Positions 1-38,868 of a stretch of DNA of 39,940 bases are shown one piece after another. A program made the translations under genes and the position numbers. Within the stretch, counting starts at the first letter, position 1. Each line of letters opens with the position of its first letter. The notes beneath the pieces were generated by a model, which did no database searches, was not told where the DNA came from, and saw only the letters and a program-made list of their open reading frames with translations. The stretch spans positions 1 through 39,940 of the forward strand of contig JAQVJP010000011.1 of NCBI GenBank assembly GCA_028695145.1, read 5' to 3'. The stretch is from Eubacteriales bacterium (GTDB lineage Bacteria > Bacillota > Clostridia > Saccharofermentanales > UBA5734).

Positions 1-119
1 CGAAGACTTCCTTCAGATTACACCTCGCGATGAACACCCTTGTCGTTGGCTGGACGCTTCCCGCTGTTAGGGCGCGTTGGGGACTTACACCCGTTAGAAT
101 ACGTTCGTGCTGGGCGAAC
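1..119 (-). mobile_element. Group II intron (IIC-like), 5' end of domain I, truncated by window edge
   Basis: Read on the minus strand from 119 downward, the sequence begins GTTCGCCCAGCACG, then GGGTGTAAGTCCCC, CAAGGGTGTTCATCGCGA and ATCTGAAGGAAG. These blocks, in this order, match from memory the start of domain I of group IIC introns such as the Oceanobacillus iheyensis intron (GUGUGCCCGGCAUG, AGGGUGAGAGUCCC, CAAGGGUGUCCGUGGCGA, AUCUGAAGGAAG). The third base of the usual GUGYG start is T here. The element lies immediately 3' of an intrinsic terminator, which is the known insertion preference of class C introns. The intron-encoded reverse transcriptase, if present, is outside the window to the left. 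The exact 5' boundary (119) is inferred from alignment to the consensus start. Confidence 0.85.
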
Positions 120-122
120 AAT

Positions 123-157
123 AAAAACGCCGTAGGATGAAACTCTACGGCGTTTTT
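123..157 (-). terminator. Intrinsic terminator of the GH43/toroid gene unit
   Basis: A perfect 13-bp stem (AAAAACGCCGTAG paired with CTACGGCGTTTTT) encloses a 9-nt loop. On the minus strand the GC-rich stem ends in a T run, about 75 bp behind the stop codon of the gene ending at 234. The A run on the other arm makes it work in both directions. The group II intron begins four bases after the T run. The stretch 158-233 between terminator and gene holds nothing else I can identify. Confidence 0.85.
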
Positions 158-233
158 CACGTACTAAATCTGAATATCCAAAATTAACCGTTGGTAATTT
201 TGACAAATTCTATTTTATCATTTACTTCATTCC

Positions 234-2279
234 TTATTTTCCAAGAAATTTTTCAGATCTCCCCGGACTGTAAAGCTCCCAAAGTGAAGCAACTGTCCAT
301 CCCGGAGCGAAAATATCATTATAGAATCCCTTTCCGTTTTTGCCATAATCCCACTGAGTATGTTGTACTACTTCAGGATAATAGCCTTTCTTTTCGACGC
401 CGCAAAGATTACCTTCAACAGGAAGTAACTGTTTCATTGAGCTACTTATCACTTTGGAAAAGCCTGAAAAACGCGGCTCTTTGTAATAATCTGACAGCCA
501 ATCAAGAACCGACGCAAACTCGAAGATAAAGACGTCGATATGGTTATTTTCGACAGATACATTACCCCATCCCCTGGTTTTGAGACCAAGGTCTCCCAAC
601 ATTTGTCCCCTTGCAAAAGGCACATCCCATACATAATACCAGGATAACGCAAAATACGACGCTCTCTTTGTAAGTGAAGCATAATGCTCCCGCTCTGCTC
701 CTTTGGAAACCAAAGCCAGATAATATGTAGCCGTTGCAGCATATAATGAAGCCTCCTTGTCCTCGCAGTTGGCATCCAGCGTAGATGAAAAGTAATCAGC
801 TTTAGATATGAGTTCCTTTTCAAGATATCCGGCAGTACGTTTGGCTCCATCAAGGTATCTCTTATCATTAAAATATTTGTATCCCATCACCAAGGGCAAT
901 GTAGCCGAAGGGGTACTCCCTCCGCTCTTATCGGCTATACTAAAATCATCTTTAAACTTACGGGGGAAACTTCCGTCACCTTGTTGTATACGTAAAAACA
1001 TGTCCAACATATGTTTCATTTTAGTCTCCCATTCCGGATGCTTTCGTCCATGTTCTTTTTCGTATTGCAAGTAGTGCAATATCGCATATACACCTTCAGA
1101 TTGTCGGCGAATACTAAGAGTCTTTTCTTCATAGCCTGTTTTAAAATCTACAAACTCTTTAAAGAATCCTGCAGAAGTAAAACCATTTGCCAGATAGCTG
1201 TCGAAAACTCTTTTACTTTGTGCAGGCAAGTCCGATCGTTTTTGTTGTTCACCATATTCCAGGGCATTATAGGCATTGAGCAGAACACGGCCCACAAAAC
1301 CCACTTCAGCAATACCGACGGGGGTACAATCATAGGTTGGCAGGTGTACACCCGAAGTGTAAACCAATGGTTTTTCGGTTACCAGACTTTCTGTAAAATA
1401 ATTGCTCAAGACCTCCTTCATCCGATCCGATGTATAAGGTGATTGTACTGGTTGAGGTTGATAACTATCGTATGCATATTCCCACATTTGTTGAACAAAA
1501 GCGGAATAGTCGGCCGACCTATTCTCCTGTATCTCCCATGTCAGAATAACAGTCTCTCCTTTTTTTACATATTGAAAAGCTTTAACTGCCGGAGCCAAAG
1601 TCAACTTCCGTATGTAACTACGGGGAGTTTCCTGATACGGAAATCCAAAAGAGAGATTAGCAACACCGTCTTGATTCTCGAACCCTGTATAGCCAAGTGA
1701 TGTTTTACCGGACAACACCACTTCACCCTCTTTATGAGTGGTTAAAGCTTCGTGAGCAAAATCATCCTTACGTGAAATGGTAAGAGATTCTCCGTTTTTT
1801 TCGTTAAAGATACCCGTAAGAGGAGCACTAAGGCGGTCTTCCCTTACAGTCCAACTATCCGACGTGTGGAAGGAAGGAGCCTCTTTTGGCGACCGCAGAT
1901 TGCGGCGATACCAGAACCCCGGCAGATAAAACAAACAATCTTCGTGACGATAACCGGTGCGGAGAAGCTGACTGTAATGAAGATAAACATCGTCTGATGC
2001 CGTAATAAAAACGGTCAATTCTTTCTTCTGTCCTTTTTCCACTACTTTTTGAAAAATAGTTACTGGCAATGGTTCTGCAGCAGTAAGCTGGTACGTAAAA
2101 TTACTGTTGGCAAGTCTGTTGAAAGTAAGCGGATACGTGTTAGAATTGTTTCCGGGTACTTTCAACGAAAGACTTGCAACGGTCTGCGATGGTTCATAGC
2201 TGTTGGCATGCAGACCAAAAATAGTAAGCGTGGAGGCTAGCAATGCTCCGAATGTGAATTTTCTAAATAAAATACTCAT
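234..2279 (-). CDS. Secreted protein of unknown function, probable alpha/alpha-toroid (glycosidase-like)
   Basis: 681 residues. The N-terminus has a signal peptide (hydrophobic stretch about residues 8-24, FGALLASTLTIFGLHANS), so the protein is exported. Residues about 30-260 look beta-rich; the remainder is helical, with repeated helix-hairpin style segments such as QQGDGSFPRKF and EDKEASLYAATATYYLAL that recall six-hairpin (alpha/alpha)6 glycosidases and lyases. I cannot assign a CAZy family and see no diagnostic catalytic motif. It starts 12 bp after the GH43 gene and shares its promoter and terminator, so a role in cleaving or binding the same pectin/arabinan-type glycan is likely by context. 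The call of fold is an inference from the sequence pattern; substrate is unknown. Confidence 0.6.
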   Translation of the reverse strand: MSILFRKFTFGALLASTLTIFGLHANSYEPSQTVASLSLKVPGNNSNTYPLTFNRLANSNFTYQLTAAEPLPVTIFQKVVEKGQKKELTVFITASDDVYLHYSQLLRTGYRHEDCLFYLPGFWYRRNLRSPKEAPSFHTSDSWTVREDRLSAPLTGIFNEKNGESLTISRKDDFAHEALTTHKEGEVVLSGKTSLGYTGFENQDGVANLSFGFPYQETPRSYIRKLTLAPAVKAFQYVKKGETVILTWEIQENRSADYSAFVQQMWEYAYDSYQPQPVQSPYTSDRMKEVLSNYFTESLVTEKPLVYTSGVHLPTYDCTPVGIAEVGFVGRVLLNAYNALEYGEQQKRSDLPAQSKRVFDSYLANGFTSAGFFKEFVDFKTGYEEKTLSIRRQSEGVYAILHYLQYEKEHGRKHPEWETKMKHMLDMFLRIQQGDGSFPRKFKDDFSIADKSGGSTPSATLPLVMGYKYFNDKRYLDGAKRTAGYLEKELISKADYFSSTLDANCEDKEASLYAATATYYLALVSKGAEREHYASLTKRASYFALSWYYVWDVPFARGQMLGDLGLKTRGWGNVSVENNHIDVFIFEFASVLDWLSDYYKEPRFSGFSKVISSSMKQLLPVEGNLCGVEKKGYYPEVVQHTQWDYGKNGKGFYNDIFAPGWTVASLWELYSPGRSEKFLGK

Positions 2280-2291
2280 AATTAATCTTTA

Positions 2292-3308
2292 TTAAAAAAC
2301 AGGCAGGAGTGATTGGACTGATGGCGAACTTGTTTCGATGCGTGGCCAGCCCTCCTTCCACTGCACCTTGTCGAGCAACAACACACGGCCATGGGGATTC
2401 TTTACATCCACGCCATGGTAAAAAATCCAGTCGTTGCCGGCTTTATCTGTAACTATTTCTGAATTATGACCTGTACCCACGAAAGAGTTGTTTTTCTGAA
2501 TCAGGACTTCGTGATGGTTGGTAAGCATACTTTGACCACTTTTATCGGCATAGGGGCCAAATAAGTTGCTGGAACGTCCCACCACTGTGGTATATGTACT
2601 CTTCAAACCTTCGCAGCAAGTTCCTGTAGAGGCAAACAGATAATAAAAACCATTTTTCTTATGGATATAAGTCCCTTCGTAGGCAGTTCCTGCAATTTGT
2701 TTTTTTTCAGCACCCGGTTTAACCGAAAGTCCGTTGTCGGCCAGTTCGATGGCAAAAATACCTCTGAAACTGCCCCAAAACAGATACCTGGAACCGCCCT
2801 CTTCTATATAAAAAGGATCGATGGAATTTTGCACGCCAATTTCATTACTTCTGAACAACATTCCATGATCCTGAAAAGGTCCTTCTGGCTTATCCGAGGT
2901 TGCAACACCAATACCGCAAGTCCACTCGCCACCCCAGACAGACATTGAGTAATACAATACATATTTATCTCCAATACGATTAATATCCGGAGCCCAAATC
3001 CCCCCCTTAGGTTCGAAATTGGGGCGTGTCTGATCGGTGAAAGCTGTGCCGACTTCCGTCCAGTTCACCAAATCGGACGAATGAAGGATAGGTACATTAC
3101 GGATATCTTCCGTTGCATATAAATAGAAGGAGCTATCTGCTGCCTGAATAGTTGTTGGATCGGGCAGACTAAAATTGACTACAGGATTTCTATAGGTAGT
3201 TTTCACATCTGGCACCTCAGGATTATCAGGCAATGGATCGCCCGTCACACCTGAGCCACAAGAAAGAAGAATACTGAGAATAAGGATCGGACTCATGACT
3301 CTTTTCAT
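2292..3308 (-). CDS. GH43 family lipoprotein, endo-arabinanase-like
   Basis: 338 residues from the ATG at 3308; an in-frame ATG at 3347 exists, but it overlaps the predicted -7 promoter element and would add residues before the signal, so the downstream start is preferred. MKRVMSPILILSILLSCGSG is a type II signal peptide with lipobox cysteine. GH43 five-bladed propeller landmarks are visible in order: SLPDPTTI (catalytic base Asp), GIWAPDI, SIDPFYI (pKa-tuning Asp), YEGTYIHKKNGFYYLF (general acid Glu) and GHNSEIV. The block FASTGTCCEGLKSTY followed by VVGRS and GPYADKSG is typical of endo-1,5-alpha-L-arabinanases. Expected to act on arabinan at the cell surface or in the periplasm. First gene of a two-gene unit with the 681-residue protein. 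Confidence 0.85.
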   Translation of the reverse strand: MKRVMSPILILSILLSCGSGVTGDPLPDNPEVPDVKTTYRNPVVNFSLPDPTTIQAADSSFYLYATEDIRNVPILHSSDLVNWTEVGTAFTDQTRPNFEPKGGIWAPDINRIGDKYVLYYSMSVWGGEWTCGIGVATSDKPEGPFQDHGMLFRSNEIGVQNSIDPFYIEEGGSRYLFWGSFRGIFAIELADNGLSVKPGAEKKQIAGTAYEGTYIHKKNGFYYLFASTGTCCEGLKSTYTTVVGRSSNLFGPYADKSGQSMLTNHHEVLIQKNNSFVGTGHNSEIVTDKAGNDWIFYHGVDVKNPHGRVLLLDKVQWKEGWPRIETSSPSVQSLLPVF

Positions 3309-3344
3309 ATAGTTTTTAAATTGAAACAGCGTGTTTGCTCTGCA

Positions 3345-3377
3345 CAAAAGTACCCTATTCGAATTATTTGAGATAAA
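3345..3377 (-). promoter_or_regulatory. Bacteroidota-type promoter for the GH43 unit
   Basis: On the minus strand TACTTTTG (3352-3345) fits the -7 consensus TAnnTTTG exactly, and TTTA (about 3377-3374) lies 21 bp upstream where TTTG (-33) is expected. Predicted transcription start near 3338 leaves a leader of about 30 nt before the ATG at 3308. This suggests that the glycosidase pair is transcribed separately from the regulator gene upstream. Confidence 0.5.
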
Positions 3378-3435
3378 ACAATCCGGTCAATCTATAAAAC
3401 AATCGAATCAAATGAGGATGAAAAAGCTCTTACGT

Positions 3436-6400
3436 TCAGGGATTCACAAAATCTTTGGGTAAAACGCCAAATTGTTTCTGGAAGCATTTGGCAAAATAAG
3501 AGGGTGTATTAAACCCTACCCGGTAACACACTTCATTTATCTTACACTCGCCTTCCTGTAACAAAGAGGCAGCCTTTTTAAGTCGTTCCAGTCGAATATA
3601 GTCGTTAGGGGTAAGATCAAGTATTCCTTTTATCTTACGGTTCAGACTGGATCGGCTCATGTGCATACTTGCCGCCAAATCATCCAGATTAAACTCAGGA
3701 TCCGACATATTACGTTCTACCTCTTCGTTCAATATCTTCAGAAAAGACTCGTCGGCTTTTGTGATCGCCAGCGTGTTTATCCCAATAAAAGGAGAGCTTA
3801 CAAATGCCTGATGCAATTTTTCACGATTTGTAAGCATACCAGAAATGCTGACAAGCAAGAATTCAATGGAAAATGGTTTTTCGATATAAGCATCAGCACC
3901 CGAACGGATTCCATCTATTTTAGCCTGTACATTGGTTTTGGCTGTAAGTAAAATGATAGGGATGTGACTATATGACAGATCCGATTTTATCCGGGAACAA
4001 AGCTCCAATCCGTCTATCTTCGGCATCATAACATCACTCACAATCAAATTTACATAATTTGTGTCCAACATTTCTATCGCCTCCTGACCATCAGCGGCAG
4101 CTAATACGGTGTAGTGTGGAGATAAATGACGACACAGAAAACCTCTCATCTCCTGATTATCTTCCACAACCAGAACTACTTCTTTTCTCTCGTTGGATTT
4201 CGTCTGCACGTTTGACAATTCAGGTTCGATGTCGTTCGTTTTTTGATCAACCGGGAGAATATCATACAACGGAGCAATAAACTCAGAAGTCGCATGTACA
4301 TCTTCCATAGCAAGCGGTACCTCAGAATTCAACCGGATAGTCTCTTTGTGATGAACCGGAAGGGTTAACCGGAAAACGTTCAGTTCAAGTGTTTCATCCA
4401 TCATCAGGGTACCCTCATGCAATTCTGCCAGCGAACGGGCCAAAGCCAACCCGATACCGGTACCCGAAGTCTGCTTCTTCCCTTTGTCATTATATTGTAC
4501 AAATGGTTTAAAAATAGCCTCTCTCATTTCGGAAGGAACAATCTCTCCGTCGTTAGCCACCACAACAGAAAACCAACCGGCAGGTTCTTCGGTCACAAGC
4601 TTTACATGAATAAAGCCACCCGCATGATTCAACGCATTGGAAAACAGATTACTCACAATCTTAATCAGAGCCTCTCTGTCGCATGAAACTACATAGCTAT
4701 CCAACGGAATATCCATTCTAAAATCAATACACCTCTGTTTTGCCAGCGGTATAAACCGCGCATGTATATCCTTCAGTAATGCTACTATCTCACATTCAAC
4801 AAAAGTTAGCCGGAAGGCATTATTTTCTGTCTTCCTGAAATCCAGAAGCTGATTGGTCAGATCCAATAACCGGTTCGCGTTCCTGCTCATAATCTGTAAA
4901 TCCTCTTCCACTCCGGGTTGAAATTCATTTTCTTTCAAAATATTTTCAAGGGGACTTTTTATAAGTGTAAGAGGAGTTCTGATCTCATGCGCCACCTGAG
5001 TAAAGAAGTCGACTTTAGCATTATAAAGTTCGCGCTCCTTTTCCCGTTCAAACTTTTCCATTTGCAGACGGTGCCTCTGTACACTTCGATTTTTCAGGTA
5101 ACGATAAACTCCGTAAAGCGTTGCCAGTACAACCAGGAAATAAAAGGCAAATGCCCAGAAAGTAAGGTAATAGGGTGGTAAAATATGTATTTCGAGTGTT
5201 GTTGGAGTAGCATTCCATAATCCATCACTGTTCGATCCTTTAACCAGAAAAGTATAGGATCCATAGGGCAGATTAGAATAATTGATTACCGGGGTTTCCC
5301 TAACGTAAAACCATTCCTTGTCGAATCCCTCCAGTTTATACATCAGCTTATTCATCCGCGGCGACTGATAACTTAGCGCTGCAATACGGAATGAGAATGA
5401 ATGCTGACTAGATTTAAGGGTAATGGCATCCAGCAAACTGATACTTTTGGGTAAAGGAGAATCTTTAGTCGCTACCGGCACCTTACGGTTGAACAAAAGA
5501 AAATCCGTAATAACCACCGGCGGTACATACCTGTTTTCTGTAAAGCTAGCCGGATCGAAACCGATAAAACCTTCAATTGTTCCCATATATATTTTACCGG
5601 AACGGTCTTTGAAAGCCGATTGATAGTTAAACTGATTGCTTAGCAACCCGCTGGAAACGGTATACACCTTTCCTGCCTTTGTTACGGGATCAAAACAAAA
5701 TAATCCGTCGTTGGTCGTTATCCAGAGCTTTCCGCTGTTATCTTCCACCATATTAAAAACAACATTGGATGGTAATGCAGAAGATTCGGAATTATAATGT
5801 TCAAACCTATCATGTACCTTATCATACATACAAAATCCACCTCCCTGAGTGGTAAACCATAACCGCTTAGCCGTATCCTGAAAAACGCTCAGCACCCTGT
5901 CGGTGGATAAGCTGTATGGATTATTTTCTTCGTGTACAAAGTGTTTCCATATATTATTAGCTGGATTAAAGCAATATATTCCGTTTGCATAGGTGGCAAT
6001 CCAAAGGTTACCCGCATCATCTTCCAACATATCGTAAATAAAAATACCTGTCAACTTTTCCACCCGTTTAAAGCGATCCGACTCTCTGTCGTAAGTATGC
6101 AAACCATAGGTTGTTCCAATCCATAATGTTCCTGATCTGGAACGACAAACCGAAAAAATATCATTCGAACTCAAGTCATCCTCTCTCATTCCCTTCTGAT
6201 AGTTCTTAACTCTTCCGGTGGGTAAATCAATGCGGTTGAGTCCCTTGGAAAAGGTGCCCACCCACAGAAAATTTCCATCCATGCACAGACCATGAACATT
6301 GTTGTACAATAACTTGTCTACAAAAGGCTTAATTTTTCCATTTTGAGGATCAAAAAGAAACAAGCCCTTATCCTCCGTACCAATCCATATGGTACCATCT

Positions 6401-7524
6401 TTCCCCTGACAAAATTCACGTACCCGTTTTCCCAATCTGAAATTATCCTCCTTTTTGGGATAATATTTTTCAAAGTAGGAGTATCCCTTGGGATAATAAT
6501 TTAGTCCGCCGAAATAAGACCCGATCCACATTCCACCTTCCTTGTCTTTGTATAATGAGTAAATCGCATTATCAGACAATGAATAAGAATCCGCTTCGTC
6601 ATGCACAAGATGATTTCTTTTCCCGCTAAGCAAATTATAGATATAAATCCCCGATTCGGTACCTATCCAAAGCTCGTCGTCTGTGTAGTATGCTATGGAG
6701 CGTACATAAGGTAACTTTCCATCTTTCATCGGCAATAAATCGCGAACCTTGTTCGATTGGATGTCAATCTCCTTCAGGCCCCCTTTGGAAGACCCCACGA
6801 ACAACGTATTATCCGGGCCCTCCACCAATTTATTGATAATATCGTCGCGGAAAGGCTTCTCTCCCGTATCCGACGAAAATGGATGAAGAGATTTAAACTG
6901 GTCGTCGGAATAATACAAGTTATCTGAATAGAAACTGATCCAGCAACGTCCTTTTGAATCGAACAAGAAATGTGTCACATTTCCCGTAACCATTTGTCCG
7001 GGGCCGTTAAACTGATAATTCTGTAATTTCCGGGTTTTCTTATTAAAACTAAACAATCCCTGCGAATCTACGGATATCCATATATTACCGGCTTTATCAC
7101 CCAAAATGGAAGTTACCGGTTGTGTAATTACCGTGTTCCGGTTGCTATTAATTGTGAATTTGCTGAACGACTCTGTCTCTTTCGAATAGACATACACCCC
7201 TATATCGGTACCCACCCAAATATTTCCATCGGTATCTTCATACAAAGTCGTAATAAAGTTGGTCCCCAGGGTACCTCCTTCTTTTCTGAAAACGCGAAAA
7301 GTAAGACCATCAAACCGATTTAAACCATCTTTGGTCCCAAACCACATAAAACCCTGACTATCCTGTAAAATAGCATGAACCGTATTTTGCGACAACCCAT
7401 CTTTACTATTCAACCTCTGGAAATAATACCTGGTATCCTGTTGATTAACGGAACACCTCGCCGAAGGGGCATTCGTCAACAAGCACAAAAGGAGGCAAAT
7501 AAATAAATAGAGCTGTTTATTCAT
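3436..7524 (-). CDS. Hybrid two-component system regulator (sensor kinase/receiver/AraC)
   Basis: 1362 residues from the ATG at 7524; the alternative ATG at 7551 overlaps the promoter element. Order of parts: signal peptide (1-25), about 14 Reg_prop propeller repeats forming two seven-bladed periplasmic propellers (to about 690; repeats such as GNIWVGTDIGVYVY and GTLWIGTTYGLHTY), Y_Y_Y domain (about 710-775), one transmembrane helix (785-808), HisKA with HEIRTPLTLIKSPLENIL (His846), HATPase (NLFSNALNHAGG, TGIGLALA), receiver (SDVMMPKIDGLEL, Asp1164) and C-terminal AraC-type HTH (about 1250-1360). Such proteins sense an oligosaccharide in the periplasm and switch on nearby polysaccharide utilisation genes; here the GH43 unit and GH20 gene are the obvious targets. 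All key residues are intact. Confidence 0.95.
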   Translation of the reverse strand: MNKQLYLFICLLLCLLTNAPSARCSVNQQDTRYYFQRLNSKDGLSQNTVHAILQDSQGFMWFGTKDGLNRFDGLTFRVFRKEGGTLGTNFITTLYEDTDGNIWVGTDIGVYVYSKETESFSKFTINSNRNTVITQPVTSILGDKAGNIWISVDSQGLFSFNKKTRKLQNYQFNGPGQMVTGNVTHFLFDSKGRCWISFYSDNLYYSDDQFKSLHPFSSDTGEKPFRDDIINKLVEGPDNTLFVGSSKGGLKEIDIQSNKVRDLLPMKDGKLPYVRSIAYYTDDELWIGTESGIYIYNLLSGKRNHLVHDEADSYSLSDNAIYSLYKDKEGGMWIGSYFGGLNYYPKGYSYFEKYYPKKEDNFRLGKRVREFCQGKDGTIWIGTEDKGLFLFDPQNGKIKPFVDKLLYNNVHGLCMDGNFLWVGTFSKGLNRIDLPTGRVKNYQKGMREDDLSSNDIFSVCRSRSGTLWIGTTYGLHTYDRESDRFKRVEKLTGIFIYDMLEDDAGNLWIATYANGIYCFNPANNIWKHFVHEENNPYSLSTDRVLSVFQDTAKRLWFTTQGGGFCMYDKVHDRFEHYNSESSALPSNVVFNMVEDNSGKLWITTNDGLFCFDPVTKAGKVYTVSSGLLSNQFNYQSAFKDRSGKIYMGTIEGFIGFDPASFTENRYVPPVVITDFLLFNRKVPVATKDSPLPKSISLLDAITLKSSQHSFSFRIAALSYQSPRMNKLMYKLEGFDKEWFYVRETPVINYSNLPYGSYTFLVKGSNSDGLWNATPTTLEIHILPPYYLTFWAFAFYFLVVLATLYGVYRYLKNRSVQRHRLQMEKFEREKERELYNAKVDFFTQVAHEIRTPLTLIKSPLENILKENEFQPGVEEDLQIMSRNANRLLDLTNQLLDFRKTENNAFRLTFVECEIVALLKDIHARFIPLAKQRCIDFRMDIPLDSYVVSCDREALIKIVSNLFSNALNHAGGFIHVKLVTEEPAGWFSVVVANDGEIVPSEMREAIFKPFVQYNDKGKKQTSGTGIGLALARSLAELHEGTLMMDETLELNVFRLTLPVHHKETIRLNSEVPLAMEDVHATSEFIAPLYDILPVDQKTNDIEPELSNVQTKSNERKEVVLVVEDNQEMRGFLCRHLSPHYTVLAAADGQEAIEMLDTNYVNLIVSDVMMPKIDGLELCSRIKSDLSYSHIPIILLTAKTNVQAKIDGIRSGADAYIEKPFSIEFLLVSISGMLTNREKLHQAFVSSPFIGINTLAITKADESFLKILNEEVERNMSDPEFNLDDLAASMHMSRSSLNRKIKGILDLTPNDYIRLERLKKAASLLQEGECKINEVCYRVGFNTPSYFAKCFQKQFGVLPKDFVNP

Positions 7525-7548
7525 TATCGATCCGGTAAAATATTCGTA

Positions 7549-7583
7549 CAAATATACTACAATTATTATATCTCAGGCTCAAA
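7549..7583 (-). promoter_or_regulatory. Probable promoter of the hybrid regulator gene
   Basis: On the minus strand TATATTTG (7556-7549) matches the -7 consensus; a TTTG (7583-7580) lies 23 bp upstream, slightly more than the usual 19-21. A start near 7543 would give a leader of about 20 nt to the ATG at 7524. The rest of the divergent spacer (7584-7758) is very AT-rich; a second TATATTTG at 7635-7642 on the plus strand could serve the GH20 gene but has no matching -33 element. Confidence 0.4.
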
Positions 7584-7758
7584 TTCTAATAGACCGATTT
7601 TTATCCAACCGCTCCCGTTATTATAAATATTTTATATATTTGCAATTATTATTTACAATATTTCAAATCAATCGCCGGATTAAATCATTCATAGCAAGAA
7701 TTTAGTCGTAAAACACAAATATATTTTATAAACTTCAACATACAAAAGAACTGTTTAA

Positions 7759-9771
7759 ATGAAAAAATTAATAATATTATTATTCATTGCATTGTGTACA
7801 GTGCAAGGGGTATATGCGGGAATTGATCATCTGTTACCCCAACCACAAAAAATAGTAAAGAGAAAGGGTGTTTTTAATCTGAACCGCACCATACAACTTA
7901 TTCTTCCTCCCACTACATCTGGTGATCCGTCAATTAAATCAGAGCTTGGAGGTTTCATTGGCATGAATGGAGGAAATGTTACCGAAAAACCCTCAAAAGC
8001 TGTTATCCGTATCAAGCTGACCGACAAAGTGGATGGATGCGAATTTCAGGAAGAGGCTTATTCATTAAACATTGAACCCTCGCAACTAACAATTCAGGCA
8101 ACAACGCTTCAAGGAGCTTACTGGGCTGTACAGACCCTCCATCAGTTGGCAGAAGGTAATAAGGGGAAATTACCGGCATGCACCATTACCGACTGGCCGG
8201 CCTTTCCCATACGTGGCTACATGCACGACATCGGACGAAGTTATATGAATTATGATGAGATACAAAAACACATTGTCAATTTATCCCGCTATAAAGTCAA
8301 CGTATTTCACTGGCATCTAACCGAAAACCAGGGTTGGAGATTGGAAAGCAAACGCTTTCCTCAGCTAAATGCACCATCCAGCTACACGCGTCATCCCGGC
8401 AAATATTACACCATTGAACAGGCAAAAGAATTGGTAGCCTTTGCTAAACAGCACAACATTATCGTAATCCCGGAAATAGATATGCCGGGGCATAGCGAGG
8501 CCTTTACACGGGCATTTGGCTATTCCATGCAAACACCGCAAGGATTGGAGACTTTAAAAGAGTTGATGAATGAAATATGCGATGTATTTAAAGATTCGGA
8601 ATGGATGCATATCGGCACGGATGAGGTAAAGATCACCATGCCTAACTTCGTACCGGATATGGTTAGCCACATCCGCAGCAAAGGGAAAAAGGTTATTTCA
8701 TGGAATCCAGGATACAAATATACTTCCGACGGTATCGATATGATCATGATGTGGAGCAACCATGGCCGGCCACTCCCCGGGAAACCGGCAATCGACTTAC
8801 GTTTTCATTATATCAACCATTTTGATACCTTTTCCGATTTAATTGGCATCTATAACAGCAACATAGCAAGACAGCCTAAAAGAAACGAACAATATGCGGG
8901 TGTGATCGTGGGAATGTGGAACGATCGAATAATGGAAAATGATAATGCCCTGCTTACACAAAACAACTTCTACCCTGCCCTGCTCGCCGTTGCAGAACGT
9001 GCATGGAAAGGAGGAGGAGATAAATATATACAGGAAAATGGCGTTCAACTGAACCCTTCGCAATCAGATTTCCCCGACTTTGAACGGAGACTTCTTTTCC
9101 ACAAGAACAATTATCTGAAAAACGAACCCATTGCCTATGTAAAACAGGTGGATGCCAGTTGGAAAGTTACAGACGCGTTTCCAAATTCCGGCAATCTTAC
9201 GGCCTCCTTCCCTCCGGAGAATAAGTTGTCCGACACATATTCATACGAAGGGAAAAGCTATAACACCCGGACCGTGTACGGATCCGGCATCTGCTTGCGT
9301 CACGTTTGGGACCCCATTGTATCTGGATTGTTTAAGAATCCACAACCCAACTCTACGGCCTACGCTTACACCTATATCTATTCTCCCAAAGTGCAAAAGG
9401 TTGGAGCCTGGATTGAATTTCAGAATTACAGCCGTTCCGAACCCGATCTTGCACCCCGCCAGGGTAAGTGGGATAATAAAGAGAGCCGAATCTGGATAAA
9501 CGATGCTGAAATTGCACCTCCTGTCTGGGAAAACACCCATACCGTACGCAATCAGGAAATACCTCTTAAAAACGAAAACATGGTCGCACGTGCACCTATT
9601 CCCGTTGAGTTGAAGAAAGGATGGAACACCGTATTCGTAAAACTCCCTGTGGGAGCATTTACAACTCCGGAAGTCAGATTAATCCGCTGGGGATTCTCGT
9701 TTGCACTTGTTACCCCCGATGGTAAAGATGCCATAGAGGGACTGATTTATTCGCCGGAGATGCGGAAATAG
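7759..9771 (+). CDS. Secreted GH20 beta-N-acetylhexosaminidase
   Basis: 670 residues with a signal peptide (MKKLIILLFIALCTVQGVYA). An N-terminal GH20b-like domain (about 25-145, ending in LQGAYWAVQTLHQLAE) precedes the TIM barrel, which opens with FPIRGYMHDIGRSYM and carries VNVFHWHLTENQGWRLE and IPEIDMPGHSEAF. The catalytic Asp-Glu pair is in HIGTDEV (Asp288, Glu289), as in substrate-assisted GH20 enzymes. About 230 residues follow the barrel core (from about 440), probably a beta-sandwich accessory domain. It should remove terminal GlcNAc or GalNAc from glycans in the periplasm or at the surface. The gene stands alone on the plus strand, divergent from the hybrid regulator, which may control it. 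Confidence 0.9.
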   Translation: MKKLIILLFIALCTVQGVYAGIDHLLPQPQKIVKRKGVFNLNRTIQLILPPTTSGDPSIKSELGGFIGMNGGNVTEKPSKAVIRIKLTDKVDGCEFQEEAYSLNIEPSQLTIQATTLQGAYWAVQTLHQLAEGNKGKLPACTITDWPAFPIRGYMHDIGRSYMNYDEIQKHIVNLSRYKVNVFHWHLTENQGWRLESKRFPQLNAPSSYTRHPGKYYTIEQAKELVAFAKQHNIIVIPEIDMPGHSEAFTRAFGYSMQTPQGLETLKELMNEICDVFKDSEWMHIGTDEVKITMPNFVPDMVSHIRSKGKKVISWNPGYKYTSDGIDMIMMWSNHGRPLPGKPAIDLRFHYINHFDTFSDLIGIYNSNIARQPKRNEQYAGVIVGMWNDRIMENDNALLTQNNFYPALLAVAERAWKGGGDKYIQENGVQLNPSQSDFPDFERRLLFHKNNYLKNEPIAYVKQVDASWKVTDAFPNSGNLTASFPPENKLSDTYSYEGKSYNTRTVYGSGICLRHVWDPIVSGLFKNPQPNSTAYAYTYIYSPKVQKVGAWIEFQNYSRSEPDLAPRQGKWDNKESRIWINDAEIAPPVWENTHTVRNQEIPLKNENMVARAPIPVELKKGWNTVFVKLPVGAFTTPEVRLIRWGFSFALVTPDGKDAIEGLIYSPEMRK

Positions 9772-9872
9772 AAAATTACAAACTTCTCAGCTTCAAAACT
9801 AATTTATTGCAAAACAAACTGTCATCCATCATTTTTACCACCCAAACAGCTGGTTAACAAAGATATATAAAA

Positions 9873-9916
9873 TGATAGATGGCATTTTCACATCTGTCAG
9901 CATGTGCCATCTGTCA
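9873..9916. repeat. 12-bp inverted repeat (hairpin)
   Basis: TGATAGATGGCA pairs with TGCCATCTGTCA over a 20-nt loop, with one wobble pair. Read on the minus strand it is followed by ATTTTATATAT rather than a clean T run, so it could be a weak terminator for the lytTR operon or a structured 3' end for the GH20 message. Function not determined. Confidence 0.35.
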
Positions 9917-10054
9917 CATCCCCCCGATCACGGAATTAGAGCTGATTTTGCAAAACACCACCACTTTTAAAGCTTTAATAGCGAGTAACTAAAAATTTCT
10001 CCCTATCAATTAGCTCCTTCTATTAAGACTTCTATTTTCCTCTATTAGGGGAAC

Positions 10055-10158
10055 TATTCGTTCAACAATTGTGTACTTTGCGTTTGACAATTGTTGAACG
10101 CAAAGTACACAGCTGTTGAACTTGCGTTTAACAGCTGTCAAACGAATAAGTATTCGTT
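10055..10158. repeat. Array of four 8-bp palindromes at 22-bp spacing
   Basis: ACAATTGT, ACAATTGT, ACAGCTGT and ACAGCTGT have their dyad centres at 10068.5, 10090.5, 10112.5 and 10134.5, exactly 22 bp apart. The second is the centre of a near-perfect 40-bp palindrome (10071-10110; arms GTGTACTTTGCGTT and AACGCAAAGTACAC). TATTCGTT (10055-10062) and AACGAATA (10141-10148) bracket the array symmetrically around 10101.5, and AACGAATA-AG-TATTCGTT (10141-10158) forms one more palindrome. The regular phase of two helical turns suggests cooperative binding of a dimeric DNA-binding protein along one face, or a recombination site. It lies in a convergent spacer, so it is not an ordinary promoter operator. 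Confidence 0.7.
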
Positions 10159-10283
10159 AACAAAAAATTAGATCATCGTAGTAAACCTATTACTTTCCTT
10201 AAGGGATTTGAATAAAGAACTGCTTGGCAATGACGTAGGGCAATGTATTGCGTCTAGTTTCTAATCGTGAAAGTCTGTGAGAT

Positions 10284-11042
10284 TCAGTGAATCCCATTTA
10301 CTATCCACGCTTTGAACTCAACCGCTTTATTTTTGCTTATATAAATCCGCTCCGGAACATCCACATCCAAGGTTATAAGAAGTCGGCTGTCAAACCATAC
10401 GGTAATATTTGTTACACTTTCTCTGGCAATAATATATTGTTTGTTGGCTCTGCAATAATCAACCGGGTTTAGCAATGAGTATATTTGTTCCAATGTTCTG
10501 GAATATGGGTATATATTGCCATCTTTCATATAGATGTAGGTATTTCTGTCGGTTGTATAAAAGCAGGAGACATCCTTTAAATTTACAGGGAGAAGTTTAT
10601 CTTTTAGAGGAACCAATAGTTTATCTATATACTTTTGCTCAACAGAAAGCTGCGTATACCTGGCAAAATAATGCATGAGGTCAGACTGCGTCCATTTTCT
10701 GAACTTTGCGAGAGCTCGCTGTAATTCTTCCGCTTTGATGGGTTTAAGCAGGTAATCAATGCTATTTACTTTGAAAGCTTCAATGGCATACTCATCGTAA
10801 GCTGTAGTAAAGATAACAGGAATTTCAACCTTAATATGTTCAAAAACGGAAAAGGCCAAGCCATCTGATAAATGAATATCCATCAGAATAAGATCCGGTA
10901 ACGGATTTCTCTTTAGCCATTCTACTGTCTGAAATATACTTTCAGTATTACCTACAACCTCTACGTCGGGCTCAATACTGACAAGAATATCTACCAGGTT
11001 CTCGTAAGCAACAGTTTCGTCTTCTACAATCAATATCCTCAT
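10284..11042 (-). CDS. LytTR-family response regulator
   Basis: 252 residues. The receiver domain (1 to about 115) begins MRILIVEDE and has the phospho-acceptor Asp55 in LILMDIHLSDG, followed by FTTAYDEYAIEAFKVNSIDYLLKPI with the conserved Thr and Lys. A LytTR DNA-binding domain fills the C-terminal half (about 145-245; FYTTDRNTYIYMKDG, YCRANKQYIIARESV, ISKNKAVEFKAWI). It overlaps the upstream LytS-type kinase gene by 4 bp, so the two are translated together and form a cognate pair. The target genes cannot be read from the sequence; the operon's own aquaporin and CobW genes or the nearby palindrome array are candidates by position only. Confidence 0.92.
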   Translation of the reverse strand: MRILIVEDETVAYENLVDILVSIEPDVEVVGNTESIFQTVEWLKRNPLPDLILMDIHLSDGLAFSVFEHIKVEIPVIFTTAYDEYAIEAFKVNSIDYLLKPIKAEELQRALAKFRKWTQSDLMHYFARYTQLSVEQKYIDKLLVPLKDKLLPVNLKDVSCFYTTDRNTYIYMKDGNIYPYSRTLEQIYSLLNPVDYCRANKQYIIARESVTNITVWFDSRLLITLDVDVPERIYISKNKAVEFKAWIVNGIH

Positions 11043-38585: not shown

Positions 38586-38868
38586 GATTTGAATTAGTTA
38601 GATACACAAATATGTAAAAAAGCATAAAGCTATGTACCTATTCGTTCATGAAAAGGAAAAAAGCAAGGGTAAACACGAAAGATTCTAAAACTATTAATCA
38701 GCGCTTATTGTCTCTAAATCTTTTACTAAAGATTTTATCCTAATTCTGACAATTCAATAACTAAAGTGGCCGTCAAGTAATTCTAATATGCCCAAGAATA
38801 GCAATCGATATAGATTGCTATTCTTGGGCATATTAGAATTACTTATAACATAGATTCCTTTAAATCAT
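38586..38868. other. Spacer upstream of the 18-gene operon
   Basis: About 280 bp with no credible gene. It should hold the operon promoter (only a weak -7-like match at 38607-38614) and the end of the TraB/GumN unit. Its one strong feature is the long perfect inverted repeat at 38775-38844. Confidence 0.6.
38775..38844. repeat. Perfect 32-bp inverted repeat with 6-nt loop
   Basis: Both arms of 32 bases pair without a mismatch (left 38775-38806, right 38813-38844; inner part GCCCAAGAATAGCAATC), loop GATATA. It lies 25 bp behind the stop of the TraB/GumN gene on the minus strand, so it probably ends that transcript, although no long T run follows. The length and perfection exceed a normal terminator and recall a small palindromic mobile repeat or a cruciform-forming site. 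Confidence 0.85.

Follow-up and report, generated by a model that had tools for sequence, protein, structure and literature searches.

The palindrome array of the window (the whole 39,940-nucleotide stretch analysed here) belongs to a family of non-coding repeats, dispersed between the genes of Bacteroidales and commonest in Tannerellaceae, of which it is one copy. The repeat is apparently undescribed: no published account of it was found in the open-access literature searched. We read this new family as one that operates on the DNA itself, each copy most likely presenting putative protein-binding sites in helical phase, and give this reading a probability of about 0.5.

The array is formed by four palindromes of about 18 bp enclosed in a larger dyad (10055-10148). 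The cores of the first two read ACAATTGT (10065-10072 and 10087-10094) and those of the last two ACAGCTGT (10109-10116 and 10131-10138). We verified the geometry described in an earlier note on this DNA: the core centres at 10068.5, 10090.5, 10112.5 and 10134.5 are exactly 22 bp apart, and the outer pair TATTCGTT/AACGAATA is symmetric about 10101.5. TATTCGTT is also found a third time, at 10151-10158. The second palindrome, P2, had been described as extending to a near-perfect one of 40 bp; an extended dyad is present there, but it is larger, with 31-nt arms that cover 62 bp and are 87% complementary, while one half of each of P1 and P3 has diverged. Among the 151 perfect 8-bp palindromes of the window this array is the only phased group of three or more (spacings of 9-59 bp tested). 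Folded as single-stranded RNA, the array reaches z = -8.9 against shuffled sequences, none of 200 shuffles being equally good. It lies, as the note had stated, between two convergent genes, which encode a GH20 enzyme and a LytTR regulator. The core element scores 85.8 and 80.9 bits with two covariance models, the window element itself being part of both model alignments.

Table 1. Positions in the window of the array, its parts and its neighbours
Feature	Position	Strand	Basis
Core element: dyad-symmetric array of four palindromes, 22-bp pitch, centre 10101.5	10052..10151		Palindrome and dyad analysis; covariance-model matches
Palindrome unit P1, GTTCAACAATTGTGTACT, right half diverged	10060..10077		Palindrome scan
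Palindrome unit P2, GTTTGACAATTGTTGAAC	10082..10099		Palindrome scan; G592 ortholog keeps the palindrome
Palindrome unit P3, AGTACACAGCTGTTGAAC, left half diverged, complementary to P1	10104..10121		Palindrome and dyad analysis
Palindrome unit P4, GTTTAACAGCTGTCAAAC, complementary to P2	10126..10143		Palindrome scan
Left end arm, TATTCGTT	10055..10062	+	Dyad; end arms covary with each other in relatives
Right end arm, AACGAATA	10141..10148	+	Dyad; end arms covary with each other in relatives
62-bp inverted repeat centred on P2, with P1 and P3 arms pairing	10060..10121		Complementarity; P1R:P3L covariation in G592-type copies
Predicted left flank, about three A/T-rich 22-bp units in core phase	9994..10059		Extent inferred from many-copy averages
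Predicted right flank, about three A/T-rich 22-bp units in core phase	10148..10213		Extent inferred from many-copy averages
Longer repeat of about 435 bp enclosing the element; three copies in G592, one being the ortholog	9799..10233		Comparison with G592
Flanking gene, glycoside hydrolase family 20 (context)	7759..9771	+	ORF context
Flanking gene, LytTR-type response regulator (context); missing at this place in G592	10284..11042	-	ORF context

Taken alone, the bin to which the window is assigned and its relatives would favour a one-off. By BLAST, the sole match in the bin is the array itself, and across the bin's relatives, family and order (188 genomes of the order) nothing significant was found besides the window; one 19-bp match (E 0.08) was seen among the relatives. 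The unit motif is not enriched in the bin (53 occurrences versus 61 in a reversed control). A pattern scan of 391 genomes of the class returned the window only, and the same kind of scan found no arrays in viral contigs. The array is not present at orthologous LytTR loci in other Bacteroidales, and Rfam gave nothing at the gathering score, with generic hairpin matches below threshold only. The window contig (G000:C65, 1-39940) is itself probably a Tannerellaceae contig misplaced in the wrong bin, or else the product of a recent transfer, because positions 1-10231 are 98.25% identical to G592, a genome of another family, and because the LytTR gene is missing in 24 relatives of the bin.

G592, which belongs to the PF5-9 family, carries the element at the orthologous position (L119). 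The sole difference within the element, window versus G592, is AATT to AGCT in the core of P2, a double change that leaves the palindrome intact. About 20 further copies exist in G592 beyond the ortholog, two of them within a unit of about 435 bp that matches window positions 9799-10233. Of 10 G592 loci that were scanned, 4 (L156, L161, L164 and L169) have tRNA genes close to the repeat, at a distance of a few hundred bp at most. To the right of the array, positions 10232-38860 form a 28.6-kb block that is not found at this place in G592 and whose left edge is the end of the 435-bp repeat. It encodes LytTR/histidine kinase proteins and, with names read from the translations only, a CobW-like GTPase, an aquaporin, several repeat-rich beta-propeller-like proteins, HymB/NADH-type, terpene-cyclase-like and polyprenyl-synthase-like proteins and a radical SAM protein. 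At its right edge, a long inverted repeat (AAGTAATTCTAATATGCCCAAGAATAGCAATC/GATTGCTATTCTTGGGCATATTAGAATTACTT, about 38780-38860) is probably a terminator.

The entry point to the family was a blastn match in a plasmid collection, to Bacteroides finegoldii (E 0.05), that spans exactly window positions 10055-10149. This locus has the identical four-unit, 22-bp layout with different letters; one B. finegoldii copy shares 72% identity with the window element along precisely that element's length, and additional copies occur in other records of this species, in P. distasonis and in gut contigs filed as phage. With covariance model R1, counting matches on both strands, we found at least about 75 places in Parabacteroides sp. 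PF5-9 (a lower bound) and about 20 in PF5-6. R1 matches 58 of the 120 Tannerellaceae genomes (the Parabacteroides family), roughly half of those sampled, and copy number within the family ranges from 0 to at least about 75; the second model, R2, has matches in only 13 of 395 genomes class-wide. The suggestion of an undescribed repeat made in the earlier note is thus strongly supported by the copies in B. finegoldii, Parabacteroides and G592, while its alternative of a recombination site found no support. The absence from relatives and of any further copies, which the note had named as counting against its reading, was not what we saw: other genomes have copies and an orthologous locus, although BLAST gave no second copy in the bin.

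Several records deserve comment. Those of B. finegoldii and P. distasonis TSDC17.2 filed as plasmids (L052, L054, L055, L210 and L211) look like chromosome pieces, since they carry rpoB, dnaE, pyrH and housekeeping genes; among the B. finegoldii records, two have rpoB or dnaE. In PF5-9 (G566), copies lie some 100 bp into contigs C7, C10, C17, C19, C21, C34, C35 and C36, which suggests that the repeats break draft assemblies; contig ends and repeat thus coincide in at least one draft. A weak match on the Spirosoma plasmid NZ_CP087141.1 (L053:4997-5034) comprises two palindromes at 22-bp spacing, near recombinase and AAA ATPase genes.

An alignment of 62 elements, drawn from many genomes, spans 100 columns at the 22-bp pitch and needs no gaps; the consensus unit is GTYYRACARYTGTYRRAC, with 4-bp linkers. 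Nearly every copy examined keeps the pitch and the global dyad, whereas sequences vary widely between genomes; the literal motifs ACAATTGT and ACAGCTGT are not the conserved feature. Four units per copy are usual; copies of three or five also occur, differ by whole 22-bp steps and retain the inverted ends. Because the letters change but the spacing and the mirror symmetry do not, it is probably the geometry itself that matters. Three independent sets showed self-similarity at lag 22, absent at lags of 20, 21, 23 and 24, which around the core extends from about -65 to +154. This periodicity beyond the core points to about three weaker, A/T-rich units on either side, giving a full element of about 220 bp, core and flanking phased units together; this extent is seen across copies and is predicted for the window's own flanks.

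Covariation of the dyad was analysed on 35 sequences (alignment A3). In the global dyad 83% of cells are paired, with two-sided compensatory changes at 44 of 48 pairs; the outer 17 pairs, which form the end arms, are 89% paired over the 35 elements. The local palindromes are 79% paired and covary too. None of 500 shuffles reached the observed pairing; slid controls gave 31-43% for the global dyad and 27-45% over all these measures. Because R1 and R2 were built with the dyad structure, the set of elements favours that structure and part of the signal was selected for, a bias that the slid and shuffled controls remove only partly. In G592-type copies, P1R:P3L covariation is strong and P2R:P4L covariation less so, with weak local palindromy of P1 and P3; a P3R:P4L hairpin seen in the fold of the window element is unsupported in these copies.

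Copies are nearly all intergenic by simple ORF calling. Forty copies of PF5-9 and PF5-6 lie in 19 tandem, 14 divergent and 5 convergent gaps (2 undetermined), and 21 copies of G592 in 9 convergent, 8 tandem and 4 divergent ones. The presence of all orientations argues against the family as a whole acting as terminators or simple promoter operators. The earlier note had excluded a normal promoter operator on the grounds of the convergent position; the exclusion agrees with the family contexts, but that position is no rule. A terminator was rejected on gene context together with the missing T-run. G-T versus A-C mismatches per copy fit strand symmetry (257 observed, 258.7 expected), so G-U wobble was rejected as a signal of an RNA strand. 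This absence of strand preference speaks against RNA and supports an element that works as double-stranded DNA. A structured RNA, whether mRNA stabiliser, terminator or small RNA, could draw on the very stable predicted fold and the numerous compensatory changes, but the two strands differ little in how well they fold (z -8.9 and -8.2), the G-U asymmetry is not seen, divergent gaps contain copies, no T-run follows the hairpin and no Rfam family reaches the gathering score. We regard it as very unlikely.

From the dispersal of the repeat, its DNA-level dyad and its helical phasing, all of which are observed, we infer a complex with one dimer per palindrome. A pitch of 22 bp corresponds to about two helical turns and would place all palindromes on one face of the helix. 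A putative dimeric DNA-binding protein would occupy each of them, and the dimers may join in a complex of two-fold symmetry by which the DNA is bent or wrapped, much as Lrp/AsnC-type octamers, which consist of four dimers, or other nucleoid proteins do; the copies would have spread without genes of their own. The nucleoid or segregation protein site proposed in the earlier note fits this phasing, the bound protein being putative. Some observations weigh against a protein array. The complementarity of the ends and of P1 with P3 would fit equally well with a mobile element that ends in hairpins or inverted repeats, and the long-range complementarity could come from palindrome-correcting replication errors. 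Moreover, sequence drift between genomes demands a drifting binding specificity, and a range from 0 to at least about 75 copies within one family is odd for an essential site. In a more specific and rather unlikely version, the repeats would be lineage-specific chromosome-organising sites, scattered symmetric phased arrays of about 220 bp that nucleate a wrapped complex, with the specificity of a putative protein co-drifting with the repeat, a Bacteroidales counterpart in function of BIME, matS or parS.

The main rival, itself compatible with a protein array, is a purely selfish MITE- or REPIN-like element in which a transposase acting in trans would recognise inverted ends or a long single-strand hairpin; the palindromes would then be transposition signals without a host function. 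We hold this to be a real possibility, if a less than even one. It would account for a high number of dispersed, intergenic, non-coding copies, for the strong covariation of the end arms and for the 435-bp version copied to unrelated places in G592, and it has a precedent in BrickBuilt of P. gingivalis, a described MITE with a 23-nt tandem repeat (PMC4596501). However, no target duplication was seen at the ends of the three 435-bp copies, and a hairpin signal needs no helical phasing, which here extends into the flanks. The Y1 tyrosine transposase (PF01797, RAYT-type), the sole class tested, is missing from copy-bearing genomes (G592, G566, G583, G599, G632, G635, G679 and G576), copy-rich ones included, and present in genomes without detected copies, a distribution that disfavours RAYT/REPIN mobilisation. 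Integron attC sites were considered because of the folded shape and set aside; the copies occur singly among ordinary genes. The array might also be a relic of mutation only, a 22-bp palindrome duplicated in tandem and kept symmetric by template-switch correction without selection. Units do appear shuffled and homogenised within genomes, and their number changes in 22-bp steps, but four units dominate, the geometry is retained across very diverged genomes and so are the end arms and flanking phased units, which makes such a relic very unlikely.

Spread through a common gut family, where one genome has at least about 75 copies, and occurring in cultured species such as P. distasonis and B. finegoldii, the repeat offers a directly testable target in the search for a candidate Bacteroidales protein that binds or mobilises it. 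As its invariant is geometry and not sequence, it escapes ordinary similarity searches, while a structure-aware model detects it at once.

The repeat falls into the broad kind of dispersed palindromic repeats. With the GTAG- or CGTC-tagged REP/BIME/REPIN elements (PMC3733652) it shares short intergenic palindromes, many per genome, in families that drift between species, and some of its subfamilies start with CGTC. It differs from them by its self-palindromic units, fixed 22-bp pitch, usually four units per copy and global dyad. A GTAG tag at the palindrome end is missing in the window element, in the B. finegoldii copies and in the GTTTGAC subfamily of PF5-9. The CGTC REP layout (CGTC, an 8-9-bp stem, a 4-5-nt loop and a CCA-like tail) is likewise not seen, the units being self-palindromes of about 18 bp, mostly in subfamilies without CGTC. 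As in MITEs, the copies are non-coding, intergenic and present in tens, with terminal inverted repeats (outer 17 columns 89% paired). BrickBuilt has a 23-nt unit, AGAYCATARTATCCTCTCRTRTG, in tandem, with 18 full repeats in one element and IS5-type ends (PMC4596501); it resembles the present repeat as a multicopy, intergenic Bacteroidales element with tandem short units between inverted ends, but the unit here is 22 bp and by eye unrelated to the AGAYCATARTATCCTCTCRTRTG consensus. Imperfect inverted repeats of 13-17 bp, clustered in alignment with the helix, are bound by Lrp dimers, whose octamers wrap DNA (PMC2995911). Lrp/AsnC operator clusters are alike in their helix-aligned imperfect inverted repeats, four-dimer octamer and wrapping, an analogy that claims no membership; they are single control regions, whereas this repeat is dispersed and any binding by Lrp would be hypothetical. 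Its defining features thus set it apart from REP, CGTC-REP and BrickBuilt within that broad kind.
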